Below, piece by piece: positions 10,466 through 48,305 of a DNA stretch of 64,000 bases. Both the position numbers and the translations under genes were made by a program. The stretch comes from Bacteroidota bacterium (GTDB lineage Bacteria; Bacteroidota; Bacteroidia; JACCXN01). The notes under the pieces were generated by a model. The model was not told where the DNA came from and did no database searches. It saw only the letters and a program-made list of their open reading frames with translations. The number at the start of each line of letters is the position of its first letter. The first letter of the stretch is position 1. The stretch covers positions 1 through 64,000 of the forward strand of contig JACCXN010000042.1 in assembly GCA_013696965.1 (NCBI GenBank), written 5' to 3'.

Positions 10466-10660
10466 ATGAAATAGCCATGCACCAAACGTTCACAAACGCT
10501 AATGAATATAACATGGCTATCCCGATAAATCGGGATGGCCTTTAAAAAACAAATTATATACATATGAAATAGCCATGCACCGAACTGTGCACAAACAGCA
10601 ATGAATATAACATGGCTTTACCATATGACAGTTAAAAAACAAATTATATACATATGAAAT
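10466..10660 (+). repeat. Two ATGAAAT-bounded repeat units overlapping a start codon
   Basis: Two tandem units start at 10466 (98 bp) and 10564 (90 bp), with ATGAAAT at 10466-10472, 10564-10570 and 10654-10660. The last 7-mer provides the ATG AAA T of the lytic transglycosylase gene. The first unit has the hairpin ATCCCGATAAATCGGGAT between its CATGGCT arm and the CTTTAAAAAAC tail; the second does not. Orientation is opposite to the copy at 10-293 on the plus strand and the same as that at 47857-47953. Confidence 0.9.
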
Positions 10661-47363: not shown

Positions 47364-47368
47364 CCTAC

Positions 47369-47552
47369 CCCCGTACGCTAAGCTGTGGGGCCAGCCTGTG
47401 GGAAGGGCTTAGTGTGGAGCCTATCCTGTAACTTTTAGTTACGCTTGCAGCATGCCAAACCCCCGTAGGCTAAGCTGTGGGGCCAGCCTGTGGGAAGGGC
47501 TTCGTGTGGAACCTATCCTGTAACTTTTAGTTACGCTTGCAGCATGCCAAAC
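47369..47552 (+). repeat. Two tandem REP copies
   Basis: 92-bp direct repeats with about four differences, each ending CATGCCAAAC. Each holds the stem-loop GTAACTTTTAGTTAC. GC content is markedly higher than the surrounding DNA. Confidence 0.85.
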
Positions 47553-47594: not shown

Positions 47595-48236
47595 ATGTCA
47601 GAGAAGTATAAAACAGATAGCGAAGGCTTATACTTTGTCAGTTTTAGTGTTGTTGGTTGGTTGGATATTTTTGTAAGAAGAAAGTACCAGGATATTTTAA
47701 CAGATAGTATAGCATATTGCCAGAAAAATAAGAACCTGAAAATTTATTGCTATTGCATTATGCCCAGCCATGTTCATTTTATAAGTTATTCCCAGAACAA
47801 AGAATTATCAAATATTTTGAGGGATTTAAAAGCATTTACCGCTAAACAACTAATAAATGAAATAGCCATGCACCGAACAGTGCACAAACGCTAATGAATA
47901 TAACATGGCTATACCATATGACCTTTAAAAAACAAATTATCTACATATGAAATTATGGAAAATCCACAGGAAAGCCGAAAAGAATATCTTTTGAATCAGT
48001 TCAGACATTATGGAAAAATAAGTCCGCAGAAACAAATTATGCAGTTTTGGAAACACGATAATCATCCATTTTATTTATATAGCAATAAAATGATCCAGCA
48101 GAAAATAGATTATATTCATGATAATCCGGTTGAAGCAGGTTTTGTAAACTATCCTTATGAATGGAGATTAAGCAGTGCAAATGAACAAAGCCCTATAAAA
48201 TTAAATGACAGGATTTTTGGTTGGCTGCAAGTGTAA
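47595..48236 (+). pseudogene. Y1/RAYT transposase interrupted by a 90-bp repeat unit
   Basis: The 5' part (ATG at 47595, MSEKYKTDSEGLYFVSFS) carries the HUH motif in MPSHVHFI. The 3' part carries the catalytic-tyrosine helix KIDYIHDNPVEAGFV. Between them a repeat unit supplies the stop TAA at 47892-47894, so the metal site and tyrosine lie in separate ORFs. Both parts are in the same frame because the insert is exactly 90 bp. Removing it gives LINEI-MENPQESRKE, which matches the usual RAYT run '...NPQESR'. Function is almost certainly lost. The longer frame from 47490 only translates the REP and is not the start. Confidence 0.9.
47857..47953 (+). repeat. Single ATGAAAT-bounded unit inside the transposase gene
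   Basis: One 90-bp unit runs from ATGAAAT (47857-47863) to just before the next ATGAAAT (47947-47953). It shares the arms AGCCATG and CATGGCT and the tail CTTTAAAAAACAAATTAT with the copies at 10-293 and 10466-10660. It lacks the long CCCGAT hairpin. Confidence 0.92.
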
Positions 48237-48305
48237 CTATAAGTTACAGGATAGGTTCCACACTAAGCCCTTCCCACAGGCTGTCCCGACAGCTTAGCGC
48301 GTACG
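48224..48305 (-). repeat. Inverted REP copy on the right side
   Basis: This is the reverse complement of the left REPs with scattered differences (GTAACTATAAGTTAC hairpin, CTAAGCCCTTCCC). Its hairpin overlaps the stop codon of the transposase (48234-48236). Confidence 0.85.

Follow-up and report, generated by a model that had tools for sequence, protein, structure and literature searches.

A gene-free repeat unit that interrupts a RAYT gene in a Bacteroidota bacterium belongs to a probable ATGAA-targeted mobile element family of Bacteroidia

The window, that is, the whole stretch of 64,000 nucleotides analysed here, comes from a draft genome of a Bacteroidota bacterium (GCA_013696965.1, contig JACCXN010000042.1). 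It contains a gene for a REP-type Y1 transposase (RAYT) that is split by a 90-bp unit, and a second ATGAAAT follows the unit directly (Table 1). The first part of the gene matches Pfam Y1_Tnp (E = 6e-7). When the unit is skipped and one ATGAAAT is kept, the joined protein reads ...KQLINEI-MENPQESRKE..., the fusion that the original prediction had described. The joined protein is identical to an intact paralogue on contig C4 (L062: KQLINAIKENPQESRKE) at 155 of 177 residues without a gap, and the DNA is identical at 442 of 532 positions, with no gap across the joined site. The exact restoration of the frame had also been put forward in the original prediction; this in itself says little because 90 is a multiple of three, and what counts is the gapless alignment with the paralogue together with the loss of the unit's in-frame stop from the reading frame.

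Table 1 Features of the interrupted RAYT gene, its repeats, and two unit arrays (positions in the window)
Feature	Position	Strand	Basis
Inserted mobile unit, 90 bp including one ATGAAAT	47857..47946	+	Model R1, 125 bits
Left tip ATGAAAT, element-owned	47857..47863	+	Tip statistics over 72 units
Left stem, 5' arm AGCCATG	47864..47870	+	Compensatory changes
Inner hairpin TGCAC...GTGCA	47869..47884	+	
Left stem, 3' arm CATGGCT	47904..47910	+	
Conserved right block	47907..47951	+	Model R2, 68.4 bits
Internal CATATG, guide-like, partner of the junction	47915..47920	+	Covariation
Junction CAT/ATG: three last element bases and three first host bases, pairing with 47915-47920	47944..47949	+	Covariation
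Host target ATGAA(AT), right copy	47947..47953	+	Empty-site logic
RAYT (Y1_Tnp, PF01797), 5' part; true coding ends near 47862, after which the frame enters the unit and stops	47595..47894	+	
RAYT, 3' part, open downstream of the unit	47947..48236	+	
The RAYT's own REP-like repeats, two 92-bp copies in tandem, distinct from the unit	47367..47550	+	
Inverted copy of the RAYT's REP-like repeat	48216..48299	-	
Array of three units, at the contig end	10..293	-	
Two-unit array that ends on a start codon (329-aa ORF)	10466..10660	+	

The interrupted gene is flanked by its own REP-like repeats of 84-92 bp, two in tandem upstream and one inverted downstream, and the flanks of the intact paralogue are related to these repeats. 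The homology of another RAYT copy (L067, 1600-1834) ends right after NPQE(R), near a contig end; this is probably a second broken copy. At the insertion position the paralogues of the same genome have ATGCGAT (L062) and ATGCAAT (L067) and no exact ATGAAAT, as would be expected of diverged paralogues rather than orthologous empty sites.

The search of the 3.86-Mb draft genome gave 93 matches to the unit at E <= 0.001, far more than chance would give, and the right-block model gave 101 matches at E <= 0.01; six units lie within the window. The elements are about 75-110 bp long and are found either singly, at unrelated loci without common flanks, or in head-to-tail arrays whose neighbours have one ATGAAAT in common. 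As originally predicted, the unit has no ORF of its own, and this absence of any gene supports the accompanying proposal that it is moved in trans. The variants are mosaic, with alternative inner hairpins, a CCCGATAAATCGGG module, or a longer right part; at four loci (L026, L036, L038, and L048) the right part holds an extra AAATGCTTTAGCATTCTTGAGTTCCTTAAAGGAA segment with two more hairpins. On two contigs (L023 and L042) the units are preceded by an identical 52-nt left flank and followed by different right flanks, which may reflect rearrangement through arrays or an assembly artefact. In many units a CCCGATAATCGGG-type palindrome takes the place of CCATATG; a Y1 transposase gene (L059, 1700-1800, G000 C33) is interrupted near a CCCGATAATCGGG palindrome, which is possibly a still smaller mobile palindrome.

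The unit model (R1) matched at least 54 of 395 Bacteroidia genomes and at least 27 of 197 genera; these counts are lower bounds, as ten candidates per genome were scored. With the right-block model, matches came from 35 of the 396 genomes searched in the phylum, one of which (G506, a weak match) lies outside the class. The carriers include the isolate Algoriphagus yeomjeoni DSM 23446, a Crocinitomicaceae MAG, a Dysgonamonadaceae MAG, and the MAGs 336R_metabinner_104 and nzgw115. No unit was matched in phage and plasmid records by blastn, or in viral contigs by one exact pattern. As no Rfam family matched the units at gathering or relaxed thresholds and no description of the family was found in the open-access literature, the family is undescribed in these sources.

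Of 72 units drawn from many Bacteroidia genomes, 60 carry ATGAAAT as the left tip; in the right copy, the bases after ATGAA vary. The seventh position is T in 69 of the 72 left copies vs 25 of the 72 right copies (P = 1e-15). At 118 array-terminal right ends, collected with ATGAA as a required part of the pattern, the base at position 6 is A in 99 cases, T in 14, G in 4, and C in 1. Since the seventh base is nearly always T on the left and varies on the right, the left copy is the element's and the right copy is the host's, with ATGAA as the minimal target, and the asymmetry at position 7 rules out a simple target-site duplication. Insertion is precise: the element enters just 5' of an ATGAA that is already there, and no target duplication of the classical kind results. 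The original prediction of a precise arrival at a pre-existing ATGAAAT in the RAYT gene thus stands as to precision and a host ATGAAA; the T at the seventh position of the right copy is host sequence that matches by chance, the shared part being only ATGAA(A). The RAYT gene is one of many ATGAA sites struck by the family.

In the genus g99, a unit of 89 bp is present on contig C43 of the genome G175 and missing from the orthologous locus in G145. The upstream flanks are 95% identical, and the two alignments overlap by exactly ATGAAA. At this site ATGA serves both as the stop of an upstream gene, which looks sigma-factor-like by eye, and as the start of the gene that follows; both signals are intact after the insertion. 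Empty sites with exactly one copy of the motif had been named in the original prediction as support. The case here comes from two close relatives that belong to a different family; it is the only fully clean orthologous empty site obtained. No intact gene with the 90 bp in coding form was seen, and the empty orthologous site does not lack ATGAAA. This site and the roughly 93-101 genome copies bear out the earlier claim that the repeat is or was mobile; the original prediction did not extend to the element's ownership of the left copy, the wide distribution of the family, or the start codon as its commonest landing place. At the gcvT locus, the unit lies directly before ATGAAAAATACA in both G145 and G175; in G395, G398, and G399 the gene begins at a single ATGAAAAAC with no unit before it. 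The orthologous copies at L237/L238 and L239/L219 have diverged, which indicates decay after insertion.

In an alignment of 82 sequences (A6) that was not fitted to a structure, the internal CATNNG pairs with the junction CNN/ATG, where the slash marks the insertion point, in 96.3% of cells. This right helix has 20 double changes vs 2.3 in shuffled alignments; none of 500 shuffles reached 20, and slid controls gave at most 9. Examples of the covarying pairs are CATCTG with CAGATG, CATGTG with CACATG, CATTTG with CAAATG, CATACG with CGTATG, and CATAAG with CTTATG. The host ATG supplies three of the six pairs. For the left helices there are 118 double changes vs 33, in an alignment fitted to the model. 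The covariation shows a left hairpin and a right helix that spans the insertion point and includes the target ATG. Wobbles in the right helix lean toward the plus strand (14 G.T vs 1 A.C), a pattern that would fit RNA or plus-strand DNA better than minus-strand DNA and is not decisive; those in the left stem (15 vs 10) do not differ significantly.

An ORF of 60 aa or more starts at 20 of the 37 right ends listed for the genome under study; when the ends before another unit or cut by a contig end are left out, about 20-23 of 31 are ORF starts. For all genomes, 81 of 118 right ends (about 70%) are start codons. By a crude ORF call, only 14% of the non-coding ATGAA sites in 231 kb of the genome under study are ORF starts. 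The enrichment is real and its size uncertain because the ORF calls overlook short genes; target choice and selection against other sites are inseparable here. The genes downstream of the units have no common function by eye.

We consider it probable that the unit is a non-autonomous, structured mobile element that is targeted to ATGAA and moved in trans, the likeliest enzyme being an HUH (Y1-like) transposase. Elements of the IS200/IS605 type insert 3' of a target of 4-5 nt, on one DNA strand and without duplication; in them and in REP elements, guide sequences that adjoin hairpins pair with the cleavage sites and so select them, and gene-free derivatives of IS200/IS605 can be moved (PMC6006769, PMC7290912, PMC8266576). 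The unit likewise lies beside a fixed target of 4-5 nt without duplication and has two hairpins with pairing across the junction, on an active strand that may be plus or minus. When read on the minus strand, it lies 3' of the 5-nt TTCAT and has hairpins close to both ends, in keeping with the IS200/IS605 layout. The enzyme supplied in trans would recognise the hairpins of the unit and act on single-stranded DNA, and the internal CATNNG would serve as the guide that chooses the cleavage site, as the guide sequences do in IS200/IS605 and REP elements. A new copy would insert beside the ATGAAAT of a previous copy and so build a tandem array. Start codons would dominate because many Bacteroidia genes begin with ATGAA and the insertion restores both edges of the site, so that the start codon is kept; in one case the overlapping stop codon of the upstream gene was preserved as well.

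No transposase gene with the ends of the element was found among 41 Y1 loci in 12 carrier genomes, an absence that is not final where the genomes are drafts; likewise, none of about 40 further right-block matches without a nearby left end was a gene-bearing copy. At only two of the 41 Y1 loci, which are orthologous (L131 and L132, 2072-2178, in two species of the genus g8), does a unit lie within about 330 bp of the Y1 gene; it is about 330 bp downstream of that gene, and a sugar-epimerase-like gene that starts ATGAAAGTA follows it. These Y1 genes were rejected as the cognate transposase, being orthologues with their own REPs between the gene and the unit. In the case of the Y1 gene on contig C94 of G000 (L056, 1186-2500), a triple-hairpin repeat of about 180 bp, with copies found at that locus only, ends with ...AACAATT directly on ATGCC; the ATGCC starts belong to an IS200-like tnpA and to two truncated 5' ends of tnpA. 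The layout is similar, but the target and the sequence of the repeat are different, and this gene was also rejected as a candidate. For IS608-like transposition, a strong lagging-strand bias is expected. Among 15 listed units in the complete genome G314, about seven lie with the leading and about eight with the lagging strand, that is, without bias, relative to an origin placed approximately, near 2.15 Mb, from sampled GC skew. The HUH (Y1-like) single-strand route is no more than our best guess, as these searches gave no Y1 gene with the unit's ends and no gene-bearing copy, and the weak strand test gave no bias. It is possible, though we hold it only tentatively, that the unit represents a new class of start-codon-targeting elements, in which CATNNG pairs with the target ATG, the enzyme lies outside the known Y1 IS200/REP groups or acts on transcribed DNA or RNA, and the units form structured 5' leaders for many Bacteroidia genes.

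The proportion of right ends on start codons relative to non-coding ATGAA (crude ORF calls), the right helix covering the AUG, and the plus-strand wobble pattern would also suit a cis-regulatory RNA leader, whose right helix sequesters the start AUG and whose copies spread because they are useful, mobility being incidental. We regard this as unlikely, as copies are also found within the RAYT gene, beside ATGAA between genes, and in tandem arrays; the downstream genes have no common function by eye; orthologous copies decay (L238 vs L237) or are missing in close relatives; and Rfam has no matching family. We give somewhat less weight still to a site-specific recombinase acting on a folded circle, integron-cassette-like or Xer-dependent, with ATGAA as the crossover core. 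The precise junctions, the arrays, the structured ends, and the short common core speak for it; however, the empty site has only about 5-6 common bases and no second binding arm, on which ground Xer/dif-like recombination was rejected, no GTT/RYYYAAC boxes of attC type were seen by eye, and no integrase was seen near the units in an unsystematic look.

A plain MITE that prefers ATGAAAT and duplicates a target site of fixed length, which the motif on both sides at the RAYT locus recalls, is very improbable: the copies differ where the host differs (ATGAAT, ATGAAG, or ATGAAC on the right vs ATGAAAT on the left), and there are no terminal inverted repeats of the DDE type. We attach equally little credence to arrays from local recombination or slippage and a RAYT copy from gene conversion rather than transposition; the tandem arrays and mosaic units show that recombination occurs and may explain array growth, but the single copies without common flanks and the clean empty site contradict it for dispersal. 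Ribosome bypassing, known from phage T4 gene 60 and hinted at by ATG AAA TAG, was rejected because it need not be invoked at start codons and relatives do not conserve the TAG.

The favoured reading, a mobile element moved in trans, is closest to the PATEs or MITEs of IS200/IS605, which are also gene-free, have palindromic ends, keep a target of a few bases on one side without duplication, and move in trans (PMC7290912). The unit differs from them in that no parent IS with matching ends was found in the carriers, both tips carry ATGAA, the placement at start codons is strong, and no strand bias was seen in the 15 units of G314. Arrays form because both tips carry the same ATGAA. REPINs and the REP or BIME elements moved by RAYTs resemble the unit in size (about 100 bp), in having two hairpins, many copies, arrays, and mosaics, and in the absence of genes (PMC3116915, PMC8266576). 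However, the unit is not composed of two inverted REPs, has no GTAG or equivalent tetranucleotide foot in the aligned units, and has a precise ATGAA target, and the RAYTs inspected in these genomes are flanked by other repeats. Integron attC cassettes also form arrays of folded units joined at a short core, but the unit has no cassette genes, and neither attC boxes nor an integrase was seen. Another small mobile repeat of Bacteroidota, from Porphyromonas gingivalis, is described as a MITE holding a minisatellite (PMC4596501) and, by that description, is a different published element. We regard the unit as small non-autonomous mobile DNA and file it under neither PATE nor REPIN because no transposase gene sharing its ends was found among the Y1 loci searched.

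This gene-free element has altered the 5' ends of many genes; a single genome may contain as many as a hundred copies or more, and the carriers span at least 27 of the 197 Bacteroidia genera sampled. It can mislead gene callers, and it can break assemblies, since many arrays lie at contig ends. The covarying helix over the target makes guide-directed targeting directly testable, and the landing on start codons with both sides preserved is a natural experiment on the tolerance of Bacteroidota for new 5' leaders.
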